Positions 46,840-53,420 of a stretch of DNA of 64,000 nucleotides are shown here, one piece after another. Each line of letters opens with the position of its first letter. Within the stretch, counting starts at the first letter, position 1. Source of the stretch: Polytrichum commune (lineage: Eukaryota; Streptophyta; Polytrichopsida; Polytrichales; Polytrichaceae); NCBI GenBank assembly GCA_950295325.1, contig OX485805.1, positions 7,688,501-7,752,500 on the forward strand. The letters are read 5' to 3'. The translations under genes and the position numbers were made by a program. The notes beneath the pieces are model-generated. The model did not search any database, was not told the origin of the DNA, and was given only the letters and a program-made list of their open reading frames with translations.

Positions 46840-47258
46840 ATTGCGAACTCCGAGGACGCAGAATTGCCAACAAGAACCTCAAATTGTGTCTGTCGAGATT
46901 GAATTGTGTTCTGATCATCGCCACTTGAACCCTAAAGCTCTGCTTGCTGATGAAAGTTGCCAAAGGAATGTGCAGATTGCGGCAAGGCTTCGTCACCAAG
47001 TTTCTCTCTTTATTGGCTAATTTCTCTTTATAAAGTATAGGGCCCTATTGTGTGCAACTTCCAACTCCACACATAATTCTAAGGTGGGTGTTATTTGGTT
47101 CGTTTTTCATGTTCTCCAAAGAAAAGAAAAAGAAAATATAACGCCCGTATATTTCATACCGGCGTGAATGTGAGCCCGTTAACCCTGTACTGATCACGGT
47201 TCATGTGATGCAATATAGGGCGTTATGCCTCTTTTGGGAGGTGGGCTCTGGTGTAGTG

Positions 47259-47852
47259 CTAGCTTGCCCCCACCCTAAGGTGGGGGGACGGGGGTTTGTT
47301 TATTGTCAAGTTTCCTTTTGTTAAGACCAAGTAAGTAAGGTATTTGATGGCATTTTGGTGTATGTTTTTCATGAGATTTTTGATGTGAGTTTTGGGGATT
47401 TTTAGCTCTATTAGTTGTTCAATGGGGCTCTCATGTATAGCTCCTCTTACTCCAGCTGTAATGGTAATGAGGGGGTTTGTTTTCCATCCGGTGTTCCTTA
47501 GTGTGGCGATTAGTGGGTCATATTTGGTGTGTTTGTGTGTGCGGGCTTGTTCGGGGAATCTGTCATGGCAGTATGTGAATTCGATGAATTGTATGGTGTA
47601 GTTGGGGGAGGGTAGTATAGGTGTTTGTGTTTGATTAGGTGCTCCAATGATGCACATTATGTCAGGGCTTAATTTGGCCTGACATTGGCATGTTCCTTGT
47701 GTACATGTGCATTTAAGAAGCCATTCTGGGATTGTTTGGTTTGGGGGTTGATTAATGAGTTTGCCTGCATTGGTCAGGGTGTAGTATCGGGTGTTTTTAT
47801 TGGCTTGTAGGGTATGGGCGATGAGGTGGATTGCTTTGTTGTGTCTTGCAAT
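47259..47852 (-). pseudogene. Retroelement C-terminus: restriction-like endonuclease (RLE)
   Basis: The reading frame continues that of the RNase H/CCHC part after a single TGA at 47853-47855. It opens with ARHN, then a Cys-rich stretch (CTCTQGTCQCQ), a PD step in SPDIMCII, an EFT step in IQFIEFTYCHDR, and a KY in KHTKYDPL. This order (R-H-N/D, P-D, D/E-x-T, K) is that of the PD-(D/E)XK nuclease of R2-type non-LTR retrotransposons, which nicks the target for reverse transcription. About 100 residues follow to the stop at 47259. It is the 3' end of the element, and its poly(A) or tail is not obvious at 47115-47258. Confidence 0.75.
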
Positions 47853-47855
47853 TCA

Positions 47856-48761
47856 TAATCCTTTTAGGTATGGGTGTTCGCATGTTGATAGTAGGTGGGG
47901 CCATGTGTCCCTATCGTTGGTATGGCATAGTGTACAATTGGGGTTTTGGTATTTGAGGGGCCAAAAGATATTTTTCCTATGGTTGCCCATATATTGGGCG
48001 TATCTAAATTTTAGAGTTTGGGTAACTTGTGTGTCTGGTATTTTGTCGTCTTTCCAAAAGTGGTTGGAGAGTTTTTGGTTGATTTGGTCATTTGATAGCC
48101 ACTTATCTACATATGGGATTTTTTGTCTTGCTGATGTGGTTACTCGGTTTACGTGTTTTTTCGTTATAAATGTGTGGAGGTTGCGAATGGCCCTGTCGTG
48201 TGTGGCAATAGGGGAGCTTGCTAGCCAATAAGGATTAGAGTGGGCTATGTGGATGCATGGTGTTTCTTTTGGTTTGTCTTTGAGTGTTCCTTCATTGGCT
48301 AGTATGTCTGCCTTTTCATTTCCATTGATTCCCGTGTGTGCTCGTACTTTGTGTATGTATATCTTATATGGGGTCCAATATATTTGATGTATGATAGCTG
48401 CTATAAGTAATTTGTCTGGATGGTGATGTTGAGATGTTGGGTGTTGTATGTGGTTGTTGATTAGGTAGATGTTGTTAAGGCTGTCTGTGAATATATGTGT
48501 GTCTTTTTGGATGATTTGGATCGTTTTAATAGCGATAAGTATGGCATTGAGCTCTGCTCTTAGAATGTTTTGGTACCCGGGTAACCTTTCGGATATTTGG
48601 GTGTTGTTGTTGGGACTATATACCCCTGAGCCCGCGGTGTTACCCTCTATTTGGCCTTCGGAGTTTTTAGAGGGTGGGATAAATGATCCATATGTACATA
48701 TGCATTGTTGTGGGTGATATTTAAGAGGGTGTATGCGGGTATATGTGGGAGGTAGTGGTGG
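47856..48761 (-). pseudogene. Retroelement RNase H domain and CCHC zinc knuckle
   Basis: In transcript order: a proline-rich linker, then CTYGSFIPP, ILRAELNAIL, HIFTDSLNNIYL, and KVRAHTGINGNEKADILANEG, which is the RNase H type 1 fold with its D/E/D/D-type active-site steps. The first Asp (TDGS in family members) is Tyr here (codon 48690-48692), so catalysis should be lost. A connecting region then leads to CTLCHTNDRDTWPHLLSTC, a CX2CX9HX4C knuckle like that between RT and nuclease in R2-type elements. RNase H removes RNA from the RNA-DNA hybrid. The frame is open throughout this part. Confidence 0.82.
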
Positions 48762-49477
48762 CTCGGGGGATGCATTGTACTAAACATGTACGAGTATACG
48801 TGAGTGCACAGGAGGGGTATTGATTTGGACCTTGCCGTATTACGTATACATATGGTATACATGTTATAATTTATAATTACGTACATATATGGAAGGCCTT
48901 TAAAAAGTATACAATAATTGTACTTATATGGTACTGTTATTATACTACATATCATAAGTTTTCATATTGGATGCGGAGGAAGTTTTGTAATCGTTGGGTG
49001 GAGTATAGGGATCCAATTGACTTGATGGACCATCCATCAAACGTGGAGATTGGTTTATGTTGGTATCAAAAAGGGGCTAACAACAAGTGGACATATGATC
49101 TTACTGATCATTTGATGGTAGACTTAGAGACAATAATTGCATTGGCTACAATGACATATATTGGTGAATCAAATGTTTATGAGTTACATCCGGGAGATGA
49201 AAAAGTTTTCAACGACTTTGCTGATGAAAGCTAGGATATTTTGTTATACATATTATAGGGGTTGATTACTGTTCAAAAGTATATTTGTATACTTATGTTA
49301 ATGACTATATATGAATGGATGTTTTTTTGTGTATACATATTGTCACTTGTATATTTATTGTTGCAATTGTATGTGTATTACTTCATTTCACAAAAAATAA
49401 CTTGTATATAGGGGGTTTTTAGAGTATGCAGTGAACGCACGTGATTCTAGGTTTTAATGAAAGGTGCACCCCCCGAG
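48762..49477. mobile_element. hAT-like transposon nested in the retroelement (716 bp)
   Basis: A perfect 8-bp duplication AGTGGTGG (48754-48761 and 49478-49485) brackets inverted ends CTCGGGGGATGCA and TGCACCCCCCGAG. Eight-base duplications are the hAT mark. Removing the insert and one 8-mer joins the two halves of the retroelement through a proline-rich linker. The interior is AT-rich and encodes only one short frame. Confidence 0.85.
48971..49234 (+). pseudogene. Short frame in the hAT-like element, possible transposase tail
   Basis: 87 codons from the first ATG, open further upstream. It contains a WVEYRDPIDLMDHPSNVE segment; a DPI-x-L-x-D-rich tail is common at the C-terminus of plant hAT transposases. 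No dimerisation (hATC) domain is present. The assignment rests mainly on context. Confidence 0.4.
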
Positions 49478-49485
49478 AGTGGTGG

Positions 49486-50259
49486 TGTTGTGGTATTATT
49501 GGGAGGGGGGGGTGATGATTTTGGGGGCGTTTTTCCATGTATTGGAGAACTTAATGTTGTATTTTTTGGGGGTAGGTTTGATGTGGTAGGTATCTATGTG
49601 TGTGTTTGTTATTCGTTTTAGGGCTTTATTTAGGTCATGTGGGAGTTGTGGGTCTATTGTTGGGTTTGTTTGGTTGTGTATATATATGATGGATGTTAGT
49701 GACGGTTCTGTATATTGGTAATATTTTGGCCATTATGGCGTGGGGTTATATTGTATGGTATGTGGTGGGATGGTTGTTATGATGTAAATATTTGCGCTTG
49801 TGGTGAGTGGTAGTTTTTGTGGTGTCCAATCAGTGTGGTTGACTATTAGTACGGTGCTTGTTTGTGTGTCTTCTTTGGCGGCCATTCTAGCCCAATGGAT
49901 GGCCTCTAGGGTCGTTTTATGGTCTGTGGGGAATGCTAGGCCTATTCCATTCCATCTAAAGGATTGTACGTGTCCTAAAGAACCAAATAGTATGTCTCGG
50001 GTATGAGGTGAGTTGTATAGTGTGAGCTGCATGGGGCAAGTAAGGGGGGATGAGTAGTATGAGTGTGTAATTTTGAAGGAGTCTATTAGTAATTTAGTAA
50101 TTTCCGGGTGTAGTGTGCGGTGTTGGTTGTTAGGTTGTATGTGTTTTGGTTTTTTCTTGGGGAGGATGGCTATGTATCTTTGTAGGAGCCATAATGTGGG
50201 GTTTTGTATTTCTTTAATGATTATGTTGTTGGGGGTTAGCTGGAGTTGTACCGGGTAGT
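49486..50259 (-). pseudogene. Retroelement domain related to PCIF1 methyltransferase
   Basis: The frame is open from 50257 down to a TAA at 49733-49735, then resumes in the same frame (WPKYYQY...) to about 49530, where a run of nine C bases coincides with a frame change. The core reads YYSSPLTC, a Ser-Pro/Arg-Asp step, FGSLG, a Gly-rich FRWNGIGLAFPTD, then an aliphatic strand VLIVNHTDW. The spacing follows the PCIF1 (cap-adenosine N6-methyltransferase) core: a SPLNC-like step, FGS-x-G, the NPPF catalytic loop, and a strand ending in P-x-W. The NPPF position is AFPTD here, so activity is unlikely. It would sit between the RT and RNase H. The RT itself is not in the window, because the CACTA terminus cuts the element at 50260. 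Confidence 0.55.
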
Positions 50260-51353
50260 CACTACAACAGATTGGGTATTTTGTGACTAGGGAAATATGA
50301 CTAGGGATGACTGGTGACTACAGGCAGTCACATTTTGCCAGGCCTCGACCTTTGGGGGGTACGAAATTCAAAAATATGACTCGCAGTCATATATCATTGT
50401 AGTATTCGGCGTATGTACCGTATATGACGTATGAGAACGACGTGTGCCTTCATAGGGAACGGCAGGGAACGTGTCTGGTGAACGCCCAGTCATATGTGGC
50501 AGTCATATTTTCCCGTGAGTCATATTCTTCAGTCACATTTTGACGATGGTCATTTTTGCCCTTTTTTGGGCAGCCCTTAAAAAAATGAGCTGCCCTAGAT
50601 GGGTCACTTGTGTTTTTGCCCCATGACTCATCGTCTAGTATTGGGATTTGTTGTATTTATTTAATAATGACAAATTCTAGTCAAAATTAATTACTTTTGG
50701 TGCTACGGTATGAACGGCAATGAAAATTAATGAATGGCCCATGTATATTTATTGAATAATTTTTGGTAGAATATAGAGGGGAAATTGGGAAAGAATATTT
50801 GAAGATAGATAGATAGAAACTCCGGTCCCTTTGAGGGGCCGGCGTGAATAGAGTGTCCGTTCGTAATGCCAACAACCCGATGTCCAAGCTATTTCCTCGT
50901 CTACGACGCGCGCCTGCCTCGGGTCGTGCGCCGCCGACCTCGGCCCAACTCGGTAGGGACGGGAGCGAATATTTGAAGTAGTTATTGCCATCATACTAAT
51001 TGAACATGTGCGGTCACAACACAACTAATTTGAGAGGGGTGGTGAGGTTGTCCGTATGCATGTCACAAATTTGAAAGGGTTTAAGGGTTTTGTGTCTACA
51101 TATGAACCTTAGACCGATGCATGTGATTGTCCCAAAAATTTTAATCAAGGATTTCCGTGTGATTTTGGTATGTCGTCTTCTTTTATTATGTGCTTGATAT
51201 CAAAGTTTAGGGATACATGAGCGAGCAACGGGAGGACATGGTGCATCTAATGTGTGTGTTATATAGCCAATACAACAAGGGACTTGATAGGGTCGTGTCA
51301 AATATATGCCCACCTAAGTTTCATTTATAAAACTCTCTTTCTCAGACAGGGAG

Positions 51354-52049
51354 TCAATCATTGTCACAGTCACTATACTCTAAATCATCTACCGATACGT
51401 CGTCTGGTCCATCTAGACATTCTAATGCTTTAACAACCACTCCTGGCCCCACTTCCACTGCATCGCCCAATATGGGTGTCTTTGGTACAAGATCGTCATA
51501 TAAGCCCATCGTATGCAATCCGGGAAAATCTGAAGTCTTGCCCAATGCTATGCATTGAACTTCATCCGTTCTCTGTTGTTTGTAGAATACCCGAACAGAT
51601 CTTGGTTCCTTGCGCAAAACAACTTCCCATCCACATTTGGCCACGTCAGGTGCAAAAAAAACTTGTTCGATGTGGAGAGGGAAGGCAAATGATTGTGCGG
51701 AGTAAGGGATCAATCTTTCAAAATTTACAGTGATAAACCCATATTCATCACGCTTCATGGTGGCCCCATCTCCTTTCATGTTTGCAACCACCCAATTGCA
51801 ATAGAGAACCACCACCTCAAAGTGTCCGTAGTCTACTGATAGGATTTCCTCCACCCAACCCACGTATTCCAGCTCTGCTGCCTTTGGATTTGTATCCTTC
51901 AAGCCCGAGCGACATAGTTGTTGAAATATTGTGGCTACTCCAGAGTCCATTGTTGTCAATTGCGCCTGTGCGCTTCGGACACGGACGTGGTTTCCAAACG
52001 CATATATGGATCGATACGACTTCGCTTGATCTGATGGAGGTAACATCAA
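51354..52049 (-). pseudogene. CACTA transposase, DUF4216-like region
   Basis: A 231-residue frame with the order seen in plant TNP2-type proteins: a tyrosine/aspartate-rich opening, YVGWVEEILSVDYGHFEVVVLYCNWVV-like strands, a DEYGFITVNFER step, then AFPLHIEQVFFAPD and a basic VVLRKEPRSVRVF segment. DUF4216 follows DUF4218 at the C-terminus of these transposases; its own role is not established. An acidic tail ends the frame. The piece at 52059-52307, in another frame and rich in Lys/Arg, probably belongs to the same protein. Confidence 0.78.
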
Positions 52050-52550
52050 GGCCCTAACCTATTCTTGTACCTCCTTAGTCCCTTCTTCTATGGCGCGCAA
52101 CACTGGCTTTGGAAACCAAATGTGAAAATCCTCATCGCGCAACTCCGCTGGGTACACTACCCGGGCCTTCCGCTTCTTACGCCTATATTCGTGGCGCTCA
52201 CATTTGCATCGTGATATGTTATCTTGGTGTTTCCTGCATGACAGACTAGTTATAGCTATGTACATGTTCATACAAAAGTCTACAATCAGAGTGACCACTT
52301 TGGTCAAAATCCCTTGCTGATGGGAAAATCTACGAGGTCCAAGGATTGCATACTAGCGCCAGTCACATTATTCATGTGACTGCATGATATCACTAAGTGC
52401 AGTCATAAATGCAAATAATCGTAGTCATAGGTGACGGAGTTGAGTGTTGTTATAAGAGAGGGGGTGCAAGACAAGTTCTTTCCTCCGAAATTGAACTCAC
52501 CTCCTCCACTCCTCTAGTGGTGCCGCATTGTTCACCACAAACTCGTGTAT

Positions 52551-53405
52551 TCATTGTCGGAGGCTAGGTGAGAGGCGACGCACCCGCTCGGCACCTTCGA
52601 GTATCTCATCATACATTGTTGGGTCTTCTTTGTTATCCCACACTCTTCTAGTGCTCATTGTGTATTCTTGCATATACTCTATGCAATATCCCAATGCCTC
52701 CACTACAACATAGCCTTCAGCCATGCAACCCTCCGGTCGAGCACAGTTTTGGACGTACCCTTTTAGAGTCTTGAGGTACCTCTCTATAGGGTACATCCAA
52801 CGTGTATGCACGGGTCCACAAATTTCCACCTCCTCCACGAGGTGCACAACCAGATGGCTCATGATGTCAAAAAATGATGGCGGGAATTCCTTTTCCAACA
52901 TGCATAGTGCTATGGCCGCTTCGCCCCTCATCTCCTCTATTGCTGCGGGATCAATGGTCTTAGCACATACCTTCCTGAATACACGGCTCAACATTATGAT
53001 TGATGTCCGAACTTCCTTTACCATTGTGCACCGCACACATAGTTGCAACACTTGTTGCATGAGGACATGGTAGTTATGGGATTTCAGGCCTTTTATGTGC
53101 CCATCTACGTTTATACGCTTCATCAGCTGACCCACGTAGTGGCTGGGGGTTCGCAGTGCATGCACTTGCTCCACAAAGACATCACGCTCTTCTTTTGTCA
53201 TAACGTATGAGGACCGAGGTAAAATGACACTGCCTGGTTTCTTTCCTATTACAGGCCAAAAATGCTTGCGTATACCCGCCTCCTTCATGTCGAGACGAAC
53301 TCCAAGTGTGTCCTTCTTTCCAAATATGGTTTTCATGACATTCTCTGCGATGTTTTTTTCACAGCGCATGACATCCAATGTGTGTCGAATTAAAAGATCA
53401 TGCAC
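52551..53405 (-). pseudogene. CACTA transposase, DUF4218 region
   Basis: A 284-residue frame with clear family landmarks: LLIRHTLDVMRCEKNI at the start, GLKSHNYHVLMQQ, a FPPSFFDIMSHLVVHLVEE segment, GPVHTRWMYPIERYLKTLKGYV, and RPEGCMAEGYVV. This is the middle of a CACTA TNP2-type transposase. The preceding TNP2 catalytic domain should lie directly upstream (above 53405) but is absent: the family's tryptophan-rich step before LLIRH cannot be found. The frame is otherwise undamaged, which suggests recent truncation. Confidence 0.88.
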
Positions 53406-53420
53406 AATAACTCGTGCCAG

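Follow-up and report, generated by a model that had tools for sequence, protein, structure and literature searches.

What is a domain resembling the cap-adenosine methyltransferase PCIF1 doing inside a retrotransposon? The question is raised by a stretch of 64,000 nucleotides from the moss Polytrichum commune (GenBank assembly GCA_950295325.1, contig OX485805.1, positions 7,688,501 to 7,752,500), hereafter the window. The original prediction, made from the letters alone, held that a non-LTR element had recruited a PCIF1-type domain, lost its NPPF loop and kept perhaps an RNA-cap or nucleic-acid-binding role. We found that the peptides on which it was built (YYSSPLTC, FGSLG, GIGLAFPTD and a strand ending in DW) do lie in one minus-strand frame, in the order claimed and ahead of the RNase H ORF at 48779-47853. 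Its coordinates needed adjustment: the frame read from 50257 is correct, but a start at 50259 gives many stops, and the open frame really spans 50317-49733 (minus; 194 aa, ending in TAA). The features of the window copy are as follows.

50195..50266, minus: C-terminal APE endonuclease remnant joined to the PCIF1-like domain, placed by local alignment to residues 629-648 of the protein of L009, a long-frame copy
49736..50215, minus: putative PCIF1-like pseudo-methyltransferase domain (PF12237, E 8.2e-7; tblastn match to L009 protein residues 1685-1922)
50203-50174, minus: NPTLWLLQRY, N-terminal helix of this domain
50059-50036, minus: YYSSPLTC, resembling the active-site loop
49999-49973, minus: RDILFGSLG, motif I
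49948-49922, minus: GIGLAFPTD, degenerate catalytic loop
49846-49826, minus: IVNHTDW, strand
49496..49732, minus: C-terminal continuation of the domain region, in the same frame beyond an in-frame TAA at 49733-49735, placed by copy alignment
48762..49477, no strand: 716-bp insertion foreign to the LINE, with inverted ends CTCGGGGG(G/A)TGCA and an 8-bp flanking duplication CCACCACT, seen as a break in copy alignments
47853..48779, minus: ORF with RNase H and CCHC (PF00075, E 2.3e-14, Pfam match 48638-48288; CCHC motif 47936-47880)
47259..47852, minus: ORF with RLE-like motifs, downstream of an in-frame stop, core 47669-47511 (PD...FIEFTY...KHTKY), by motif reading
47119..47258, minus: 3' UTR, with structured RNA and a T/C-rich tail; similarity to other copies stops at 47119-47129

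A dead window copy with an internal deletion

The window copy is dead: its RT is missing, a 716-bp DNA transposon has inserted into it and its frame is broken by stops. Approximately 20 residues of APE near 50260-50200 (minus) are fused directly to the PCIF1-like domain; this remnant aligned to the L009 protein with a local score of 58, against a best of 47 in 500 shuffles, while its scores with two proteins of the other subfamily, 36 and 34, were within the shuffle range. The RT and a chromo-like region are absent from this copy, an internal deletion having joined the end of APE to the PCIF1-like domain. The 716-bp insert, which is DNA-transposon-like and has an unassigned open frame of 136 aa on its plus strand, stands between the end of the domain region and RNase H. 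In RNase H itself, the first motif reads TYGSF in place of the TDGSF of intact copies, its first Asp having been replaced. RNase H and an RLE nuclease had both been predicted for the element; the former is borne out by its Pfam match, whereas the ORF at 47259..47852 has no Pfam match, and its core carries motifs resembling those of an RLE.

Other mobile elements lie nearby. Just upstream, 50803-50886 (minus) is a 3'-terminal piece of another element, from the subfamily with AHP in its catalytic loop; this piece is 92.9% identical to the copy L036 and keeps the terminal hairpin and TATC tail; at 51354-53420 (minus) there are remnants of a CACTA-like transposon with DUF4218 (6e-38) and DUF4216 (5e-7).

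The domain matches the PCIF1 methyltransferase domain

Against Pfam (hmmscan, E up to 10), the window ORF matched PCIF1_WW (PF12237) as its sole family, at 29.2 bits, which falls just below the curated cut-off of 31.1 bits. The family name is misleading because the region matched by PF12237 falls in the PCIF1 methyltransferase crystal chains. For a WW domain proper, no family was listed in five long ORFs (E up to 1 in three and 0.5 in two), in searches where HMMER filters may drop weak matches.

We compared profiles of the element domain, built with PCIF1 excluded, with 177,635 PDB sequences. A profile of 25 element copies (A1) ranked zebrafish PCIF1 (1.7e-4) ahead of human PCIF1 (0.012), with a ribosome-binding factor third at 0.96; a longer profile of 24 copies (A3) returned zebrafish (0.0012) and human (0.28) PCIF1 and nothing else. 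All 24 members of A3 matched PF12237, the best at 1.1e-13 over profile positions 12-144. In the reverse direction, an 87-aa fragment of zebrafish PCIF1 found element copies at 3.8e-4, the six best rows being 34-38% identical to it. The fragment scored 28.3 bits against A1 and 25.4 against A3, where the best of 2000 shuffles reached 5.5 and 5.0. When the window ORF alone was compared with the PDB by phmmer, PCIF1 was not among the matches listed, so that the PDB case depends on profiles; the ETV6 fusions and Rsa4 that it returned were taken as short local matches. Modelled on its own with AlphaFold2, the window protein gave an unusable structure (pLDDT 39); Foldseek on it found nothing at E <= 0.001 and no PCIF1 in the best 50 rows, and its best match, an unrelated protein at E 0.035, was discarded.

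The aligned block spans the SPLNC stretch and FGS-x-G of PCIF1, and the human alignment continues, placing EANPPF onto the elements' YAHP; the HMM alignments are firm to about the catalytic loop and less certain in the C-terminal part. In PCIF1 the active-site loop is F479-P494 and the catalytic loop N553-C557 (PMC10544176), and the SSPxTC of the elements would correspond to the former. Together, these searches show that the element domain is homologous to the PCIF1 methyltransferase domain, as predicted.

The domain is integral to a large moss LINE family

The host genome, of 408 Mb with seven large contigs adding up to 406 Mb, matches the LFY family domain PF01698 at four places, against 0 of 14 control genomes; exons at the two places read encode a LFY C-terminal stretch with YLFDLYEQC, the form found in mosses. 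With the window ORF as genome query, the best 150 of 2028 candidates were scored and the weakest had an E of 7.2e-64; with PF12237, the best 150 of 697 were scored, all above the curated cut-off and the best at 1.1e-12. Eight long frames were read (L009-L012 and L035-L038; 2305-2924 aa between stops). They run from a 2A-like motif through APE and RT to a region weakly resembling a chromodomain, then the PCIF1-like domain, RNase H and, last, CCHC and RLE-like motifs. All eight have the RT YADD motif, YLCQW, the PCIF1-like domain, RNase H and the APE-type motifs TWN, QETK, GDFN and SDH, and seven have NPGP. CCHC and (R/K)PD ... FIEFTY, motifs resembling those of an RLE, are present in 7/8 without a Pfam match, the L010 frame stopping earlier. 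Pfam found RVT_1, RNase_H (PF00075) and PCIF1_WW in each of the five long ORFs submitted, and an APE family at E <= 1e-4 in four, with none listed for L036. The host element belongs to a large non-LTR family of the LINE type in the moss, a dual-endonuclease family by its APE and RLE-like motifs.

The domain is also a constant companion of the RT. With the RT of L009 as query, the best 150 of 1699 hits were scored, and 33 of these lay in frames of at least 1500 aa; every one of the 33 carries the PCIF1-like domain, 27 with a correctly spaced match among the matches listed and six on individual reading, among which L044 encodes the domain across a frameshift and L047 has SSL for SSP. L009 was itself found via its PCIF1-like domain and is one of the 33. 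The domain is integral to the family, between RT and RNase H.

Ahead of APE, a 2A-like NPGP motif is found in L009, L010 (twice), L011 and L035-L038. The 2A consensus D(V/I)ExNPGP (PMC4981915) is exact in three of the eight long ORFs (L009, L035 and L038) and relaxed to DI(Q/H/K)PNPGP in four; the motif is absent from L012. The YLCQW region between RT and the PCIF1-like domain (L009, L010, L012, L035, L036 and L038) has weak chromodomain matches, with PF00385 below cut-off (E 0.02-0.12) in two of six sequences searched and in L010; a PDB profile search reached CDYL chromodomains with E-values of 1.3 and 1.9.

Two near-identical copies have approximately 11.9 kb in common, a stretch that includes a long upstream ORF; the upstream ORFs had nothing above cut-off in Pfam, and a search for target-site duplications in two near-identical copies gave none that were convincing. 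Copy pairs are 99.2% and 99.6% identical over 8.3 and 9.2 kb, pointing to recent mobility or duplication. On contig C6, similar broken copies cluster at 29.9-30.7 Mb, all on the plus strand among the matches listed; perhaps this cluster was amplified inside a larger repeat.

Catalytic residues are replaced family-wide

N6-adenine methyltransferases require a (D/N/S)PP(Y/F/W) motif. In the elements, the NPPF of PCIF1 is replaced by AHPx in the larger subfamily and AFPT in the window subfamily, so both the catalytic Asn and the aromatic are lost. The original prediction that NPPF was lost was right for the catalytic residues, but the loop itself is present, with replacements fixed across the family. 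NPP[FYW] occurs in 0/8 long ORFs. For the larger subfamily, the pattern K-W-x-G-x-G-Y-A-[codon]-P matched 414 genome sites, with His at the catalytic position in 404, Asn in 1 and other residues in 9; for the window subfamily, (K/R)-W-x-G-x-G-L-A-[codon]-P matched 67 sites with Phe and 0 with Asn, counts taken codon by codon with no any-codon total. These genome-wide counts rule out local decay as the source of AFPTD in the window copy. PCIF1 loses its activity when NPPF is changed to APPA or SPPG (PMC10544176). Because NPPF is replaced family-wide and these PCIF1 mutants are inactive, the element domain is very probably no longer an N6-adenine methyltransferase.

Selection keeps the domain

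Nei-Gojobori dN/dS ratios for the domain were 0.087 for L037/L038 (dS 0.38) and 0.131, 0.130 and 0.139 for L009/L012, L009/L010 and L010/L012 (dS 0.8-1.1 in all three); with dS of approximately 0.8 or more in three of the four pairs, L037/L038 alone is free of near-saturation. For comparison, the defined ratios for RT were 0.038 and 0.045, and those for APE ranged from 0.08 to 0.17. We left out rows with undefined dS (including the L035/L037 domain), the near-identical pairs L010/L011 and L036/L037, which have too few changes, and RLE-Cterm rows of pairs beginning with L010, whose bounds were wrong. A further alignment, A2, has L004 on the wrong strand and contributed to no count. These ratios indicate that the PCIF1-like domain is under purifying selection. 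Conservation is concentrated: among the 257 columns of A3 filled by at least 20 rows, 35 are invariant, and 11 of these lie within the 34 columns that make up the active-site loop and motif I, a hypergeometric p of 0.002 that is descriptive only because the copies are related and the segment was picked from the PCIF1 alignment. A dead enzyme kept by selection in a mobile element points to a new use for it.

A candidate RNA- or nucleotide-binding module

What might that use be? The dead fold, the strong conservation on the side of the old pocket and the position between polymerase and RNase H lead us to infer a non-catalytic module that binds RNA or a nucleotide. A LINE would have captured a PCIF1-type methyltransferase domain into its long ORF, between RT and RNase H; the domain has lost the catalytic Asn and the NPPF aromatic, with the active-site-side loop and motif I retained by purifying selection; the old pocket and loop would hold a nucleotide or RNA, presumably the transcript of the element itself, and would help the template to stay positioned between the polymerase and RNase H. 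We consider this reading as a whole, in which both the binding and the identity of the bound RNA are proposals, somewhat better than an even bet. A narrower form, closest to the RNA-cap role first suggested, is that the domain is a non-catalytic cap reader that holds the mRNA of its own element by the capped 5' end; we think this improbable. If true, it would let the RT complex select full-length capped transcripts and pass on their 5' end during joining of the second end of the DNA.

The main rival is that the dead fold merely spaces RT from RNase H as a structural tether, much as a connection domain does. Its constant position between RT and RNase H in the long ORFs examined and its lost catalytic residues suit a tether, and the conserved pocket residues could be kept for folding alone; yet a spacer has no need, folding apart, of conserved columns that cluster in the former active-site loop and in motif I instead of being evenly spread, and we regard the tether as unlikely, though worth serious consideration. 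That the domain is still an enzyme, with the fixed His or Phe supporting another chemistry or methylating another substrate, draws on the constancy of His (404/414 sites) and on a retained motif I that makes SAM binding conceivable. It has to contend with the motif requirement of N6-adenine methyltransferases, with the inactivity of the APPA and SPPG forms of PCIF1 (PMC10544176) and with the difference between the subfamilies, one having His and the other Phe, which speaks against one shared chemistry; we think it very unlikely.

Two further explanations are fainter still. The similarity to PCIF1 could be chance or reflect a different Rossmann-type fold, as the modest PDB E-values, the phmmer search that misses PCIF1 and the unusable structure model would allow; Pfam, PDB profiles, the reverse search with zebrafish PCIF1 and the 2000-shuffle control all concur against it, and we give it very little credence. 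Least probable of all is a PCIF1-like role for the domain in directing the element to transcribed genes through contact with RNA polymerase II. PCIF1 does bind this polymerase, at its phosphorylated tail, but through a separate N-terminal WW domain (PMC10544176), and no WW family was listed for the five long ORFs.

Returning to the binding module, the 3' UTR offers a candidate ligand. Its RNA is structured in the window copy (47138-47250, minus; fold z-score -3.3), L009 (8235-8360; -9.1), L012 (8260-8392; -6.1) and L010 (8218-8340; -7.2), with an enclosing stem, two inner hairpins and a 3'-terminal hairpin. The consensus of five sequences has two-sided changes at 5/37 pairs, with several other pairs broken in some sequences; seven element loci had no match in Rfam. 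Element tails are (TATC)n and T/C-rich. This structured 3' UTR could be the natural partner RNA of the PCIF1-like domain, a speculative link between the two.

How LINEs select their own full-length RNA and complete the 5' junction is an open question, and a dead relative of a cap methyltransferase would be a concrete, testable part of the answer.

Origin of the domain

The fixed presence of a PCIF1-like domain in the main protein of a LINE raises the question of where it came from. PCIF1 dates to the last eukaryotic common ancestor (PMC8868631), and small jumbo-phage enzymes are described as being closest to PCIF1 (PMC7824862). Our searches of eukaryotic genomes covered this one moss, in which we found no unbroken exon of a host PCIF1 gene, although introns could hide one. 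An ANPPF-context pattern had one genome match (L039), which lies in no plus-strand frame of at least 50 aa and was rejected as host PCIF1. The zebrafish PCIF1 fragment gave no outstanding match among the best 150 of 263 candidates, and the two best (L050 and L051) are both element copies. Patterns made from two conserved peptides alone matched 65 and 54 prokaryotic or viral stretches, with 0 confirmed in each, a search that distant relatives would escape.

No paper listed in our searches of the open-licence literature describes, in its title or abstract, a PCIF1-like domain in a retroelement; an earlier description is possible, including in Repbase or Pfam. Among the LINEs of plants, a 2022 review names just L1 and RTE (PMC9033089), a picture with which a moss element carrying APE and RLE-like motifs contrasts.

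Comparison with known systems

The element domain shares with PCIF1/CAPAM (PDB 6irv and 6irx; PF12237) the N-terminal helix, SPLNC-type loop, FGS-x-G, position of the catalytic loop and following strand; it differs in having AHPx or AFPT for NPPF and no WW family found, and in lying within a retrotransposon polyprotein. PCIF1 also has a helical domain for binding the m7G cap, and transfers methyl groups to capped RNA to make m6Am. A relative with an altered catalytic motif has a precedent in Drosophila PCIF1, reported as catalytically dead, with the Phe of NPPF changed to His, in an animal without m6Am (PMC9479742). That protein, however, is the product of a host gene in which Asn is kept, whereas the moss domain belongs to a mobile element in which Asn itself is replaced.

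As for the element, Dualen encodes both APE and RLE (PMC4640811) and occurs in Chlamydomonas and its relatives (PMC8226300), and algal RandI tails include (ATT)n and (CTATTT)n (PMC3747384). In content, the moss family resembles these green algal elements in having APE and RNase H and in its 3' tails of simple repeats other than poly(A), and its RLE-like motifs may match their combination of APE with an RLE. We know of no PCIF1-like domain or 2A-like motif in Dualen, and the available parts of the Dualen papers mention neither. For placement within the protein, the nearest parallel is the connection domain of retroviral and Ty3-type elements, a degenerate RNase H between RT and RNase H. Both are degenerate enzymes in the same position; there, the remnant is an RNase H, whereas here it would be a methyltransferase, in a LINE.
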